Below, piece after piece: positions 12,744-20,635 of a DNA stretch of 64,000 nt. Position 1 is the first letter of the stretch, and the number at the start of each line of letters is the position of its first letter. The notes beneath the pieces are model-generated. The model saw only the letters and a program-made list of their open reading frames with translations. It did no database searches and was not told where the DNA came from. This DNA is from Methanosarcina sp. MTP4. GTDB taxonomy: Archaea; Halobacteriota; Methanosarcinia; Methanosarcinales; Methanosarcinaceae. The position numbers were made by a program, and so were the translations under genes. The DNA is taken from assembly GCF_000970045.1 (NCBI RefSeq), contig NZ_CP009505.1:992001-1056000 (forward strand), written 5' to 3'.

Positions 12744-12820
12744 GGGCCCGTAGCTCAGTCAGGCAGAGCGTCTGGCTTTTAACCAGACGGCCTAGGGTTC
12801 AAATCCCTACGGGCTCGCCA
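12744..12820 (+). tRNA. tRNA-Lys (anticodon UUU), CCA encoded
   Basis: A full cloverleaf can be drawn. The acceptor GGGCCCG pairs with CGGGCTC, including one G-U pair. The anticodon stem TCTGG/CCAGA encloses the loop CTTTTAA with anticodon TTT. The T arm is TAGGG-TTCAAAT-CCCTA. The discriminator base is G and the terminal CCA is encoded in the DNA. Anticodon UUU reads lysine AAA/AAG codons. It sits just ahead of rpoH, in the same direction. Confidence 0.97.
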
Positions 12821-12923: not shown

Positions 12924-13160
12924 TTGATAAAATTCAGCCTGCTCGACCATGAGTTAGTCCCTAAACATGAGATCATGTCTGAGGGCGAGTTAAAGTCTGT
13001 TTTAAGCAAGTATTCCATTGAAAAGGAGCAACTGCCAAAAATTAAAGTTCATGACCCTGTTATAAAAGAGATCGGAGCCACAGTAGGGGAAGTTGTAAAG
13101 ATTGCGAAAAAGAGTCATACTGCAGGGGAGGCAGACTATTACAGGCTCGTAATTGAGTGA
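12924..13160 (+). CDS. rpoH: DNA-directed RNA polymerase subunit H (Rpb5 C-terminal homologue)
   Basis: A 78-residue RpoH subunit, the archaeal counterpart of the C-terminal domain of eukaryotic Rpb5; it binds near the downstream DNA jaw of the polymerase. The sequence KFSLLDHELVPKHEIMSE is family-typical, and the end GEADYYRLV matches the conserved C-terminus. The TTG at 12924 is taken as start because GGAGG (12912-12916) lies seven bases upstream and it gives the normal length; an ATG at 12888 would add 12 unrelated residues. It leads the polymerase operon. Confidence 0.93.
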   Translation: MIKFSLLDHELVPKHEIMSEGELKSVLSKYSIEKEQLPKIKVHDPVIKEIGATVGEVVKIAKKSHTAGEADYYRLVIE

Positions 13161-13325
13161 TTTTGGGGGAGTTTAACAGTTACGTAATTTAAATTTTCCA
13201 TATTATACACCTTTTTGAATCAATGCGCCGGCCTTACTGGATGAATATTCAGCGGCTGTTCACAAAATTTGGAAAATTATTGATTATCGATTTTCACCGC
13301 AACTTAAAGCAAAGAGGGTGCTATC

Positions 13326-14975
13326 ATCGCTTTAGACAACAGTATACTGTCGCAGGCTTATTTTACACGGGATAAGATAGTGCAGCACCATATCGACTCA
13401 TTTAACAAATTCATAGATCATGGGCTGCAGAAGATCATTGATGAGCAGAATATAATAGAAACGGACATTGAGGATACCTATCTCAAACTTGGGAGGATCC
13501 GGGTAGAACATCCGGTGGTGAAGGAAGCCGATGGGGCAATCGAGAAACTTTACCCCAACGAAGGCAGACTCCGGAACCTCTCCTACTCCGGCCCCCTTTA
13601 CCTGGAGATGAGTGTTGTCAAGGACGGGATTGAATCCGAGGTATTGGAGGCAAAAATAGGGCAACTCCCTATTATGACCAAGTCAAAGGTCTGTAACCTC
13701 CTTGGACTGAGCGATCCTGAAAAAGTCCGCTATGGTGAAGATCCCCTGGACTCCGGAGGGTATTTCATCATAGGGGGGACTGAAAGAGTTGTCATGACCC
13801 TTGAAGACCTTGCTCCGAACAAGATCCTTGTGGAGTACGGGGAACGCTACGGGGACAACATCGAAGTTGCAAAGGTCTTCTCCCAGAAGCGGGGGTACAG
13901 AGCCCTCGTAATCGTGGAAAGAGGCCGAAAATCCCTGCTTGAAGTGTCCTTCCCTTCTATTTCGGGAAGAGTATACTTCATCACCCTGATGCGGGCCCTT
14001 GGCGTTGTTACTGACGAAGATATCGTAAATGCAGTCTCAAGCGACCCCGAAATCATCAAGTTCATGCTGGAAAACCTTGAAGAAGCCGAAGTCGAGACCC
14101 AGCAGGAAGCAATTGAGAAGATAGGGGCGAGGGTTGCAGCAGGGCAGGCCAAGGAATACCAGATCAAGAGAGCAAACTACGTTATTGACAGGTACCTCTT
14201 CCCTCACCTTGGGAACGACGTGGCCGACAGGATCGCAAAGGCTCATTTCCTGGCAAGGATGGCAGAGTCCTGTTTCGAACTGGCGCTTGGCAAAAGGGCT
14301 GAAGACGATAAAGACCACTATGCCAACAAAAGGCTGAAACTTGCGGGAGACCTGATGGAAGACCTCTTCAGGGTATCCTTCAACAGGCTGGCAAGGGACA
14401 TCAAGTACCAGCTAGAGCGCGCAAACATGAGGAACAGGGAACTCAACGTAGCCACAATTGTCAGGGCGGACGTCCTGACAGACCGCCTGCAGCACCCCCT
14501 GGCAACCGGAAACTGGGTTGGAGGGAGGACCGGGGTTTCCCAGCTCCTCGACAGGAACGACTACATTTCTACCCTTTCCCACCTGCGGCGCGTAATCTCT
14601 CCGCTTTCCCGGGCTCAGCCGCACTTCGAGGCAAGAGACCTGCACCCCACCCAGTGGGGAAGGCTCTGTCCCTCTGAGACTCCTGAAGGTCCCAACTGTG
14701 GACTGGTGAAAAACTTCGCCCAGATGGTGGAGCTGTCCACGGGCACGGAAGAGATCGACAGCATAAAGAAAATACTCTATGACTTTAATGTCGAGCCTGT
14801 AGTCATCAAGGTGCCCGAGGTGCCTGCAGCCCTTGATCTGGAAATTTCCGAATTTGAAGAAGAGGTCATAGAAGAGCTGGAAGTAGTGCCTGAGGGGAGC
14901 AAGTTTAAAGATGACGATTATTTGGATTATTCGGGCGATAACCTGGAAGAAGGCGGGTCGATACTAAATGACTAA
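13326..14975 (+). CDS. rpoB2: DNA-directed RNA polymerase subunit B'' with apparent non-standard ATC start
   Basis: N-terminal half of the archaeal beta subunit, split in methanogens; 549 residues if begun at 13326. It contains [15 protein letters not shown] and the fork-loop region [25 protein letters not shown] near its end. The first ordinary start codon, GTG at 13380, lies after [16 protein letters not shown], which belongs to the expected AYF-x-KIVxxHIDSFN start of the family. Upstream in frame there is a TAA at 13305 and no ATG, GTG or TTG between it and 13380. GAGGGTG at 13314-13320 lies five bases before ATC at 13326, so AUC initiation is the best fit. CTG at 13347 is an alternative, and a base error is possible. 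The gene overlaps rpoB1 by 8 bp. Confidence 0.93.
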
Positions 14976-16782
14976 AGCAAAAATATTCATCAACGGAGAG
15001 CTTGTCGGAACCCATGACAACCCTGCGGAACTGGTGGAAGAACTCCGAAAAATGAGGCGTCAGGGTTTCATCTCCAAGCAGGTCAACATAGCCCTGAACG
15101 ACAATACCAGGGAAGTAGTCATCAGCTCCGATATGGGCAGGGCCAGAAGGCCCATGGTAGTTGTGGAAAACGGGGTTCCACTGGTTACGGAAGAGCAGAT
15201 AGCGAAACTGAAGAATAAAGAAATCGGCTTTGAGGACCTGGTAAAGGGAGGTTGTGTGGAGTATCTGGACGCCGAGGAAGAGGAAAACGCCTACATTGCC
15301 CTCTACGAGTCCCAACTTAACTCAAGGCATACCCACATGGAACTCGATCCCGAACTCATGCTCGGGATCTGCACGGGAATGGTCCCGCATCCGGAACACA
15401 ACGCTTCCCCGCGTAACACAATGGGGGCAGCGATGATCAAGCAATGTATCGGGGTTTCCACGGCGAACCAGAAACTCCGGCCCGATACCCGTGCCCACGT
15501 CCTGCACTATCCACAGAGGGCAATGACAAGGACAAGGACCTGTGAAGCCATTGGTTTTGATGACAGGCCTGCAGGCCAAAACTTTGTGGTGGCAATCCTT
15601 TCCTATGAAGGGTACAACATTGAAGATGCCCTTATTTTCAACAACGGGTCAATTGAAAGAGGCCTTGGAAGGAGCCACTTCCTCAGGACATTTGAGGGTG
15701 AAGAGCGGAGATACCCCGGTGGTCAGGAAGACAAGTTCGAGATCCCCGACTCCGAATTCCGTGGAGCTCGCAGTGCAGATGCCTATGCGAACCTGGACAT
15801 TGACGGGCTTGTAAACCCCGAGACCCCTGTGGGTCCTAACGACGTGCTTATCGGAAAGACCAGTCCTCCGAGGTTCCTGGAAGAACCTTCGGAATTCGGG
15901 ATTGCCGTAGAGCAGCGGAGAGAAAGCTCGATTACCATGCGGTCCAACGAAAAGGGAATCGTGGACACTGTCATTCTTACAGAATCCATCAACGGGACTC
16001 GCCTTGCCAAAGTCAAGGTCAGGGACGAGAGGATCCCGGATATCGGGGACAAGTTTGCATCCCGGCACGGGCAAAAAGGAGTTATCGGACTGAAAGTCCC
16101 GATCGCTGATATGCCCTTTACGGAATCTGGCCTGACCCCCGACCTTATGATCAACCCGCACGCCATTCCTTCCCGTATGACTGTCGGGCACGTGCTTGAA
16201 ATGATCGGGGGAAAAGTCGGGTCCATGGAAGGCAGAAGGGTGGACGCTACAGCCTTTTCCGGAGAAAATGAAGAAGACTTAAGGGAAGCTCTGAAAAGCC
16301 ACGGTTTTGCCCATACCGGTAAAGAGGTATTCTACGATGGCGCAACCGGCAGAATGATCCCTGCTGATGTCTTTGTTGGAGTAATCCTTTATCAGAAACT
16401 GCACCACATGGTTACTTCCAAGATGCACGCCCGTTCCCGCGGTCCCGTGCAGGTGCTTACCCGCCAGCCCACCGAAGGTAGGGCAAGGGAAGGAGGTCTG
16501 AGGTTCGGAGAAATGGAGCGTGACGTGCTGGTAGGGCACGGGGCTGCCATGTCCCTGAAAGAAAGGCTGCTGGACGAGTCGGACAAGGTTGTGGAACTTG
16601 TCTGCTCCCATTGCGGTATGATAGCAACTTTTGACAAGCAGAGGAACGTCTCTTTCTGTGCTGCCTGCGGGGCTGACACGGATATCTATCCCGTGGAGAT
16701 GAGCTACGCATTCAAACTGTTACTGGACGAAATCAAGTCCCTGGGTGTTGCACCCAGGCTCAATTTGGAAGATGCGGTATGA
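14968..16782 (+). CDS. rpoB1: DNA-directed RNA polymerase subunit B'
   Basis: C-terminal half of the archaeal beta subunit, 604 residues. It includes the active-centre region [11 protein letters not shown] near 212, [13 protein letters not shown] near 363, and the hybrid-binding/clamp segment with [24 protein letters not shown] near 490. A zinc site is formed by CSHCGM and CAACGAD near 548-574. The ATG overlaps the last codons of rpoB2 (ATGACTAA), so translation is coupled. Length and motifs are normal. Confidence 0.97.
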
Positions 16783-16796
16783 GGTGAGGTGAAAAT

Positions 16797-19442
16797 ATGG
16801 CAAACGTCCCTCCAATTCCGAAAAGAATTTCTGCTATTAAGTTTGGCTTAATGTCTCCGAAAGAAGTCCGGAAGATGAGTGCAACCCCGATCATTACGGC
16901 AGATACCTATGATGATGACGGGTTCCCTATTGACATGGGACTCATGGACACGAAACTCGGGGTCATCGACCCGGGGCTTCGCTGCAAGACCTGTTCCGGG
17001 AGAGCCGGAGAATGCCCGGGACACTTCGGGCACATCGAACTTGTGGCTCCTGTTGTACACGTAGGGTTTAACAAGATTATTCGGAAGCTGCTCAGGGCAT
17101 CCTGCCGGAAATGCAGCCGGATCCTGCTGGACCCCGCACAAAAACAGCATTTCCTGGAGCAGCTGGCAGCTGTTGAAGAAATCGGGCACAGGCCTGATGA
17201 CCTTATCAATGAGGTCTACAAGGAAGCAAGCAAAGTCAAGACCTGCCCCTACTGTAATGAGGAGCAGCTCGACATCAAGTTCGAAAAGCCCAGCGAGTAC
17301 CTTGAAAACGGGGAGAAGCTTACTCCCACAGAGATCAGGGACCGCTTCGAAAACATTCCGGACGAGGACATCCGGGTCATTGGGATGGATCCCAATAACG
17401 CAAGGCCCGAATGGATGATCCTCACCGTCCTGCCCGTTCCCCCGGTAACGGTGCGCCCTTCCATTACCCTTGAATCCGGGCAGCGCAGTGAAGACGACCT
17501 GACCCACAAGCTTGTGGACATCATCAGGATCAACCAGCGCTTCCAGGAAAACAGGGAAGCAGGTGCGCCCCAGCTGATCATTGAAGACCTATGGGAGCTT
17601 CTGCAATATCACGTTACTACTTTCTTTGACAACTCTGTCTCCGGTATCCCCCCGGCAAGGCACAGGTCAGGAAGGCCCTTAAAGACCCTCTCCCAGCGTC
17701 TGAAAGGAAAAGAAGGCCGTTTCAGGGGCAGTCTCTCGGGTAAACGTGTAAACTTCTCGGCTCGTACCGTGATTTCTCCTGACCCGAACCTGAGCATCAA
17801 CGAAGTCGGGGTCCCGATTCCAATCGCAAGGATCCTGACAGTTCCTGTAATCGTAACTCCCAGGAACATCGAGCAGCTCAAGGTTTATATCCGGAACGGG
17901 ACTCTTATCCATCCCGGGGCAAACTACGTGTTCAGGCCCGACGGGCGTCGCATTAAAGTTACTGAGATCAACAAGGAAGACCTGGCAGAGAAAATCGAGT
18001 ATAGCTGGATGGTCGAACGTCAGCTAAAAGACGGGGACATCGTGCTTTTCAACAGGCAGCCTTCCCTTCACAAGATGAGTATCATGGCTCACTCGGTCAA
18101 GGTGCTCCCGAACAAAACCTTCAGGCTCAACCCTGCAGTCTGTCCCCCTTACAACGCTGACTTTGACGGGGACGAGATGAACATGCACGCCCTCCAGACC
18201 GAAGAGTCCAGGGCTGAGGCAAAGATCCTCATGAGGGTCCAGGAAAATATCCTCTCCCCGCGTTTCGGAGGTCCCATTATCGGCGGGATCCACGACCACA
18301 TCTCGGGGCTTTTCCTGCTAACCCGTTTTGAGAATCATATCTCTGCGAAGGACGCCTTTGACATCCTCAGGAAGGCGAAAGCTCACGAACTACCCGATCC
18401 GGCGGGCCACGATGAAAACGGGATACCTTTCTGGACAGGAAAACAGATTTTCAGCCAGATCCTGCCCGAAGCCCTGAACATGGGATTCCCGGCTCAGGTC
18501 TGTTCGCACTGTGATGTCTGCCAGGAAGAGGAATGCCCAAACGACGCCTATGTGGTAATCCGTGACGGGGTCCTCATCAAAGGTACCATCGACGAGGCAG
18601 CTATCGGGGCGTTCAAAGGAAAAATCCAGGACCGGATCATCAAGGAGATCAGCGCCGAAGCCGGGGCTAAGTTCATAGACGACATGACCAAGCTTGCAAT
18701 CCGGGCAATCATGCGGACTGGCCTGAGTTTCGGGATCGCCGACGAAGATATCCCCAAGGAAGCAAGGATCCAGATCAACGAAGTCCTCGGCACAGCTGAA
18801 GATGCCGTTCAAAACCTAATCAGGTCCTACGAGAACAAGGAACTCGAGCCCCTCCCCGGAAGGACCCTGGACGAAACTATCGAGATGAGCATCATGCAAA
18901 AACTCGGTAAAGCCAGGGACGAGACCGGGAACATAGCAGACAGCCACATGGGGCTTGAGAACTCGGCAGTTATCATGGCCCGTTCGGGTGCCAGAGGTTC
19001 TATCCTGAACCTTACCCAGATGGCAGCCTGTGTGGGCCAGCAGGCAGTGCGTGGTGAGCGCATTCGCAGAGGATACGCAGGCAGGACACTCCCTCACTTT
19101 GAAGCAGGGGACCTGGGTTCGGATGCTCACGGTTTCGTCAAGGCAAGCTACAAGAGCGGGCTGAACCCGACGGAATATTTCTTCCACGCCATCGGTGGTA
19201 GGGAAGGGCTTGTGGACACTGCGGTCAGGACGTCCCAGTCAGGGTACCTCCAGCGCAGGCTTGTTAACGCCCTCCAGGACCTTGAAGTCCATTACGACCT
19301 TACGGTCAGGGACACTCGAGGCGTGGTTGTGCAGTTCAAGTACGGAGAAGACGGGATCGACCCCACAAAGAGCGATTTTAGCAAACCCGATGCGATCCAG
19401 CGGATTATCCGCTCTGTTATGAACAAGGAGGCGGCTGAATGA
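16797..19442 (+). CDS. rpoA1: DNA-directed RNA polymerase subunit A'
   Basis: The N-terminal two thirds of the archaeal largest subunit, 881 residues. A zinc site CKTCSGRAGECPGHFGHIEL lies near residues 63-82, followed by a second CxxC pair (CRKCSR, CPYCNEE). The catalytic magnesium loop NADFDGDEMNMH is near 453-465. Bridge-helix sequence GLNPTEYFFHAIGGREGLVD is near 782. The gene is 14 bp after rpoB1 and overlaps rpoA2 by 4 bp (ATGA). The split between A' and A'' is at the usual archaeal position. Confidence 0.97.
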   Translation: MANVPPIPKRISAIKFGLMSPKEVRKMSATPIITADTYDDDGFPIDMGLMDTKLGVIDPGLRCKTCSGRAGECPGHFGHIELVAPVVHVGFNKIIRKLLRASCRKCSRILLDPAQKQHFLEQLAAVEEIGHRPDDLINEVYKEASKVKTCPYCNEEQLDIKFEKPSEYLENGEKLTPTEIRDRFENIPDEDIRVIGMDPNNARPEWMILTVLPVPPVTVRPSITLESGQRSEDDLTHKLVDIIRINQRFQENREAGAPQLIIEDLWELLQYHVTTFFDNSVSGIPPARHRSGRPLKTLSQRLKGKEGRFRGSLSGKRVNFSARTVISPDPNLSINEVGVPIPIARILTVPVIVTPRNIEQLKVYIRNGTLIHPGANYVFRPDGRRIKVTEINKEDLAEKIEYSWMVERQLKDGDIVLFNRQPSLHKMSIMAHSVKVLPNKTFRLNPAVCPPYNADFDGDEMNMHALQTEESRAEAKILMRVQENILSPRFGGPIIGGIHDHISGLFLLTRFENHISAKDAFDILRKAKAHELPDPAGHDENGIPFWTGKQIFSQILPEALNMGFPAQVCSHCDVCQEEECPNDAYVVIRDGVLIKGTIDEAAIGAFKGKIQDRIIKEISAEAGAKFIDDMTKLAIRAIMRTGLSFGIADEDIPKEARIQINEVLGTAEDAVQNLIRSYENKELEPLPGRTLDETIEMSIMQKLGKARDETGNIADSHMGLENSAVIMARSGARGSILNLTQMAACVGQQAVRGERIRRGYAGRTLPHFEAGDLGSDAHGFVKASYKSGLNPTEYFFHAIGGREGLVDTAVRTSQSGYLQRRLVNALQDLEVHYDLTVRDTRGVVVQFKYGEDGIDPTKSDFSKPDAIQRIIRSVMNKEAAE

Positions 19443-20635
19443 GTATCAGCGAAACCACGATCGAAAGCATGACTAAAGACCTTCCTCTCCCTTCAAACAT
19501 AATGAAGGCCCTCCGGAATGAAGCGCTCAATGCCGGGGTAAGCAAGAAGGAAATGGAAGAAATAATAGAGCAGGTCATGGAAGAATACAAAGAGTCGTGC
19601 ATCGAGCCCTGTGATGCCGCAGGGGTAGTTGCCGCCCAGTCCATAGGGGAACCGGGTACCCAGATGACCATGCGTACCTTCCACTATGCGGGTGTGGCTG
19701 AAATTAACGTTACCCTGGGTCTGCCCCGCCTGATCGAAATCGTGGATGCCCGGAAGATCCCGAGCACCCCGATGATGACGATTGCCCTTTCCAAGGAAAA
19801 CGCGGATGATTACGCCTACAACAGGGAGAAAACAAGGGCCCTTGCCTGGGAGATCGAAGCTACCAGGATCGACCATATTGCGGACGTGACCACTGACCTT
19901 TCCCAGATGAAGCTCATCATCGACATGCATGAAAAGGCCATGGAAGGCAGGAATATTACCATCGAACAGATCAAGGAGAAGTTCAGTGAAGAAATGAACG
20001 TAATGGTGAGCATCTCCCCTGACATCGATAATCAGATCATTATAACCCCTAACGAGCCGTCCTACAGAGAACTCCTCCAGCTTGCAAAGAACATCCACGA
20101 CGTCACCCTGAAAGGAATTGAGGGGATCAAGAGGGTTGTTGTCAGGAAAGAAGGGGAAGAGTATACCCTTTACACCGAAGGTTCGGCCCTTCGCGAGGTG
20201 CTTCAGTTCGAAGGTGTGGACAGGACAAGAACCAGTACCAACAATATCAACGAGATCTATGAGGTGCTGGGAATCGAGGCCGCCAGGAATTCGATCATAA
20301 AGGAAGCCACCGACACCCTCAGGGAACAGGGGCTTACCGTAGACATTCGCCACATCATGCTGGTGTCTGACCTCATGACCTGTGACGGGGAAGTGAAACA
20401 GATCGGAAGGCACGGCATTTCCGGTGAAAAGGCCAGTGTCTTTGCACGTGCGGCTTTCGAAGTTACGGTCAGCCACCTGCTGGACGCCGGGATGCGCGGA
20501 GATGTGGACGAACTCAAAGGCGTTACTGAAAACATCATTGTCGGCCAGCCTATCCGGATGGGTACTGGTGATGTCCACCTGGTCAGCAGAAAGAAGGAAG
20601 ATAAGATCGAAGTTGAAGACGAATGCGGGGTCTGA
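19439..20635 (+). CDS. rpoA2: DNA-directed RNA polymerase subunit A''
   Basis: C-terminal third of the largest subunit, 398 residues. The trigger-loop region CDAAGVVAAQSIGEPGTQMT is near residues 58-77 and continues as MRTFHYAGVAEINVTLGLPR. The C-terminal jaw follows. Translation is coupled to rpoA1 through an ATGA overlap. The gene ends 210 bp before rpl30e with a hairpin just after its stop codon. Confidence 0.97.
   Translation: MSISETTIESMTKDLPLPSNIMKALRNEALNAGVSKKEMEEIIEQVMEEYKESCIEPCDAAGVVAAQSIGEPGTQMTMRTFHYAGVAEINVTLGLPRLIEIVDARKIPSTPMMTIALSKENADDYAYNREKTRALAWEIEATRIDHIADVTTDLSQMKLIIDMHEKAMEGRNITIEQIKEKFSEEMNVMVSISPDIDNQIIITPNEPSYRELLQLAKNIHDVTLKGIEGIKRVVVRKEGEEYTLYTEGSALREVLQFEGVDRTRTSTNNINEIYEVLGIEAARNSIIKEATDTLREQGLTVDIRHIMLVSDLMTCDGEVKQIGRHGISGEKASVFARAAFEVTVSHLLDAGMRGDVDELKGVTENIIVGQPIRMGTGDVHLVSRKKEDKIEVEDECGV

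Follow-up and report, generated by a model that had tools for sequence, protein, structure and literature searches.

Conserved start codons other than AUG are known in bacteria, the AUU of Escherichia coli infC among them. In Staphylococcus aureus, infC starts with AUA, and three AUU or AUA sites showed about 10% of AUG activity in poor medium, according to excerpts of PMC13009471. For archaea, passages of two papers state that aIF1, aIF1A and aIF2 take part in start selection (PMC7531240) and that aIF1 reportedly favours the rejection of non-canonical starts (PMC8211752). A passage of PMC2678158 proposes, from an alignment, that rpl12ae of Staphylothermus marinus begins with ATC. In Methanosarcina mazei, 79% of the longer genes use ATG, and rpoB/A show a lower ribosome-footprint level under nitrogen limitation, as given in excerpts of a Ribo-seq paper (PMC11456600). 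Here we describe rpoB″, the gene of RNA polymerase subunit B″, in a 64,000-nt stretch of DNA from Methanosarcina sp. MTP4 (the window, meaning the whole stretch analysed). The comparison across Methanosarcinaceae shows an AUH codon (AUC, AUA or AUU), conserved in position and frame behind an ordinary Shine–Dalgarno (SD) sequence, as the apparent first codon of this gene.

In the window, rpoB″ follows rpoH and is itself followed by rpoB′, rpoA′ and rpoA″ (Table 1); we take rpoH, rpoA′ and rpoA″ to be the genes so named on the grounds of homology. A tRNA-Lys (TTT) gene lies directly upstream of rpoH, at 12744–12820. The rpoB″ product scored 850.7 bits against the NCBIfam equivalog model for B″ (NF007175; cut-off, 355), with positions 3–492 of the 496-position profile aligned to residues 4–493, and it contains the Pfam domains RNA_pol_Rpb2_1, RNA_pol_Rpb2_2 and RNA_pol_Rpb2_3. 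Its N-terminal homology to solved archaeal RNA polymerases begins at query residue 7 or 8. The gene is present as a single copy in the genome, with 100% identity to the window across the query.

Table 1. Positions of rpoB″, its start region and the neighbouring genes in the window.
Feature	Position	Strand	Remarks
rpoH	12924..13160	+	TTG start behind GGAGG; 165 nt before rpoB″; name presumed from homology
In-frame TAA	13305..13307	+	Closes the frame upstream of rpoB″ (window sequence)
SD-like GAGGGTG	13314..13320	+	GGTG core ends 5 nt before ATC 13326
Proposed AUC start codon of rpoB″	13326..13328	+	From family comparison
rpoB″ (RNA polymerase subunit B″)	13326..14975	+	549 codons counted from ATC
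GCT, codon next to ATC 13326	13329..13331	+	Where the other four families of the order have their canonical ATG/GTG/TTG start, and Methanomicrobiales CTG/TTG
CTG, rejected as start	13347..13349	+	Not conserved
GTG, first usual start in frame	13380..13382	+	Internal Val codon 19, within the aligned conserved protein
rpoB′	14968..16782	+	ATG start; 8-nt overlap with the end of rpoB″
rpoA′	16797..19442	+	ATG start; name presumed from homology
rpoA″	19439..20635	+	ATG start; 4-nt overlap with rpoA′; name presumed from homology

From position 13305 the window reads TAA AGC AAA GAG GGT GCT ATC (13323) ATC (13326) GCT TTA GAC AAC AGT ATA CTG (13347), and so on to ATA GTG (13380). The original prediction held that this interval offers no ATG, GTG or TTG in frame, and the window sequence bears this out from the TAA at 13305–13307 up to GTG 13380. 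It also held that GAGGGTG is correctly placed for ATC 13326, and the ribosome-binding site indeed stands at normal spacing, with GGTG ending 5 nt before the codon, an arrangement shared by 94 of 99 family genomes. The duplex of this site with the 3′ end of the genome's own 16S rRNA was calculated at −7.4 kcal/mol, weaker than that of 37% of 108 ATG genes in 464 kb of the same genome; the SD in the window is thus ordinary and not extended. The leader appeared unstructured in the 81-nt fold (z = 0.07), an Rfam search matched nothing but the tRNA, and the leader sequences beyond the SD looked unlike between genera on inspection by eye. Two other codons were considered as starts and rejected. The first ATC of the tandem (13323) is not conserved, other genera having AGT, ACC, ACT, AAC or AGC in its place, and CTG 13347, put forward earlier as the next candidate, was dropped because it is not kept as CTG (it is ATC, for example, in genus g10).

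The alignment with other Methanosarcinales that had been proposed as a check on ATC 13326 was then read across the family. A search of 111 Methanosarcinaceae genomes found the rpoB″ N-terminus in 107, and all 107 loci were read; one (L035, genome G098) was masked, which left 106 readable genomes in 14 genera. Four of the genus labels used here were tied to named genera: g13 to Methanosarcina, g10 to Methanolobus, g6 to Methanococcoides and g9 to Methanohalophilus. At the codon matching 13326, 61 genomes have ATC, 33 ATA, 11 ATT and one CCA, so that 105 of the 106 readable genomes keep an AUH codon and none has ATG, GTG or TTG: the position is conserved across species while the usual codons are avoided, in agreement with the proposed start. 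A base error at 13326, which the original prediction had wished to see excluded, is ruled out because independent genomes carry AUH. By genus, ATC is fixed in the readable genomes of g1, g6 and g13, ATA in g10, g12 and g8, and ATT in g5; g9 and g14 are mixed. All 106 readable genomes have an in-frame stop 12–96 nt upstream of the codon. For the remaining counts, the six g11 genomes and genome G105 were left out, giving 99 genomes. The GGTG motif lies at −9 to −6 in the 94 already mentioned, and no usual start occurs between the upstream stop and AUH in 94 of 99; of the other five, four have one at −6 or −9, within the SD or adjoining it, and the fifth has one at −21. Downstream, no canonical start occurs before +54 in 79 of 99 genomes, before +87 in 25 and before +162 in 13. 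A usual in-frame start could therefore not encode the conserved N-terminus, from upstream in 94 of 99 genomes or from before +54 in 79 of 99.

The pattern of substitution around the codon was examined in 32 genomes from g1 and g13. No changes were found at any of the three positions of the start codon or in the 15 bases before it; extending this stretch to 19 bases adds a single change, and each position from −30 to −21 has one to five. Codons 11–18 change almost solely at third positions, and are therefore translated. This bears directly on the alternative in which translation starts at GTG 13380 and everything upstream is an untranslated leader. That codon is the first ATG, GTG or TTG in frame, and many relatives also have a GTG at +54; however, the codons before it are under coding constraint and match the B″ family model as well as the solved polymerases, which upholds the earlier claim that they encode the conserved N-terminus. 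Moreover, many genomes of g10, g5 and g14 lack a GTG at +54 and have their first usual start at +87 or beyond, and by eye nothing but a weak GGGA precedes GTG 13380. We regard a start at this GTG as extremely improbable.

Another alternative is that AUH is an internal isoleucine codon, reached from a start upstream, or from the out-of-frame GTG within GGTG followed by a frameshift into rpoB″. ATC, ATT and ATA are exactly the pattern of a conserved Ile codon, and most genomes have the out-of-frame GTG at −8, from which the window reads the short frame GTG CTA TCA TCG CTT TAG. Against an upstream start stands the in-frame stop at 12–96 nt, with no canonical start in between in 94 of 99 genomes, and since a conserved Ile codon would need a start ahead of it, which is lacking, we do not take AUH for one. 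The frameshift route was rejected, since the GTG is missing from L036 and L045 (both g5) and no consistent short frame exists: by eye, the frame lacks a stop at this point in g9 and ends at different codons in other genera. A start at the out-of-frame GTG would also leave no room for an SD. On these grounds an internal isoleucine codon is very unlikely, if slightly less so than a start at GTG 13380.

The absence of AUG was assessed at the third base of the codon in 105 rows, counting the six of g11 and the one with CCA; another readable genome was omitted because bases farther inside are masked. C occupies this base in 60 rows, A in 34, T in 11 and G in none, whereas not one of 34 control columns (first two bases conserved, fourfold freedom, same rows) lacks G. 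Fitch parsimony gave 7–8 changes at the codon vs a median of 23.5 at the 34 control columns; the third base thus changes more slowly than neutral sites, so that C, A and T cannot replace one another freely. Under this constraint it alternates between C, A and T from genus to genus but is never G. This is the pattern expected of a start kept non-AUG, and also that of a conserved Ile codon. Conservation of AUH without AUG suggests a start kept weak by evolution, and the earlier proposal that a weak start keeps the level of B″ low would fit this avoidance of ATG.

A few members of the family depart from the pattern. The six g11 genomes (L067, L074, L080, L083, L102 and L103) keep ATC, and all six have a GTG at +21, preceded by what looks by eye like an SD (GAGGG); two of the six carry an in-frame TAA at +6. 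Because of this TAA and of the GTG in 6/6, g11 has probably switched to the downstream GTG, a natural reversal of the AUH trait. The former AUH site is still recognisable in these genomes. Genome G105 (L073) is the sole one in the family to read CCA at the start position. This results from a short deletion, which may be an assembly error or reflect an ACG start. In addition, the two g8 genomes have GTG at +3 and the eight g9 genomes TTG at +6; a usual start is therefore possible there, and these codons might be used in place of AUH.

Among the neighbouring genes, rpoB′ starts with ATG in 44 of the 45 family loci counted (46 were given); it overlaps rpoB″ in 18 of the 45 and starts 13–14 nt after it in 27. 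The rpoH start is TTG in 86 of 106 family loci and GTG in 8, the remaining 12 being rows in which the aligned codon is not the start. As a further AUH case rpoK was considered and rejected, TTG being the likely start, by eye, in most rows of the 25 loci checked out of 30 (L341–L370); the M. mazei Ribo-seq excerpts describe rpoK as N-terminally extended (PMC11456600). When 464 kb of the same genome was scanned by hexamer score for genes without a usual start, gaps of at least 12 codons were seen in 83 of the 291 putative genes, and rpoB″ itself scored only 0.03.

Outside the family, 30 genomes were chosen from the other four families of the order. All 30 loci read start with ATG, GTG or TTG at the place of GCT 13329, the codon following AUH. 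At that position Methanothrix-like loci have TTG and Methanoperedens ATG; haloarchaeal rpoB″ starts lie elsewhere, near by. For Methanomicrobiales, a search with the L230 protein gave 68 genomes (30 + 40 loci, minus two from another family), and in these (L230, L248–L315) the same ancestral start position holds CTG in 54, TTG in 13 and ATG in one. SD pairing, calculated with the anti-SD of the window genome in place of their own, was very strong, −16.9 to −19.4 kcal/mol, at three of five CTG sites tested (L256, L273 and L304), and weaker at L251 (−8.9 kcal/mol) and L264 (−10.1 kcal/mol). In some CTG rows a TTG, GTG or ATG stands a few codons further upstream, in or near an SD-like stretch, and may be the start there. 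CTG in Methanomicrobiales is apparently another conserved, non-canonical start of rpoB″.

As a whole, the best explanation, to which we assign a probability of roughly 0.8, is that AUC 13326 is the start of rpoB″, held weak by selection and gating the B″–B′–A′–A″ operon. The comparisons argue strongly for the start assignment; the function as a weak gate is what we infer from them. The AUH start would have arisen in the common ancestor of Methanosarcinaceae, directly before the codon that had served as an ATG, GTG or TTG start. AUC would be read by initiator Met-tRNA with a third-position mismatch, giving Met-Ala-Leu-Asp and so on, and initiation would be less efficient than at AUG. Selection for this weakness would make B″ the limiting first cistron of a closely packed operon, and the later cistrons B′, A′ and A″, which have AUG starts and overlap or lie within about 14 nt, would be partly coupled to it. 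The AUH codon may also be a genuine start whose weakness serves nothing, an accident fixed once in the ancestor of the family and kept as adequate. A single origin accounts for the family-wide distribution, and the ribosome-binding site of a neighbouring gene, that of the rpoH TTG, is likewise conserved. This account must nevertheless explain why 7–8 changes at the codon never gave ATG although G is present in 34/34 fourfold columns, and why a separate second shift, to CTG or TTG, took place in Methanomicrobiales; we consider it rather unlikely, though the most plausible of the alternatives to selected weakness. Beyond the gate itself, one could imagine that Methanosarcinaceae (with AUH) and Methanomicrobiales (with CUG) separately made the first codon of rpoB″ a translational governor, in which the fidelity of aIF1, aIF1A and aIF2 sets the coupled synthesis of the RNA polymerase core. 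If so, the capacity for transcription would depend on the condition of the translation machinery. We hold this to be an improbable extension, and regulation of rpoB″ by these three factors is a guess.

If selected weakness is the correct reading, this archaeal family has a non-AUG start, with AUG apparently selected against, in a gene of the core transcription enzyme. Gene callers limited to ATG, GTG and TTG would truncate B″ by 18 residues or place its start wrongly in Methanosarcinaceae and in much of Methanomicrobiales. Methanosarcina is genetically tractable, and would offer a setting for asking whether the strength of an archaeal start codon sets RNA polymerase levels; the locus also bears on the in vivo discrimination of near-cognate codons by aIF1 and aIF1A. 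The literature searched, which lacked many subscription papers, yielded no account of archaeal rpoB″ starting at a codon other than AUG, and the rpoB″ start is not discussed in section 7 or the excerpted passages of the M. mazei Ribo-seq paper (PMC11456600). What seems new is that a conserved weak start codon, a known kind of element, occurs in an archaeal RNA polymerase gene.

Bacterial infC (AUU or AUA, with IF3 autoregulation) resembles rpoB″ in having a conserved AUH codon behind an SD, and the excerpted accounts describe its start as limiting initiation. However, the infC product discriminates against its own start, whereas the product of rpoB″ is not an initiation-fidelity factor but RNA polymerase subunit B″, and archaea use aIF1, aIF1A and aIF2; the autoregulatory loop of infC can therefore not apply. 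The S. aureus genes ccpN (AUA) and cvfC1 (AUU) likewise have a conserved weak start in the excerpted description, weakness being deduced for rpoB″. Those genes have extended SD pairing, which is absent from the window, where the pairing (−7.4 kcal/mol) is exceeded by that of 37% of the 108 ATG genes. The rpl12ae gene of Staphylothermus marinus is, like rpoB″, an essential archaeal gene with an ATC start assigned by alignment, but the passage concerns one genome and gives no conservation or function, in contrast to the family-wide occurrence at rpoB″. A further parallel lies in the same gene in Methanomicrobiales, with a non-canonical start in 54 of 68 genomes, which differs from that of Methanosarcinaceae in its codon (CTG), its place one codon downstream and its predicted SD pairing of −8.9 to −19.4 kcal/mol, below −16 in three of five sites.
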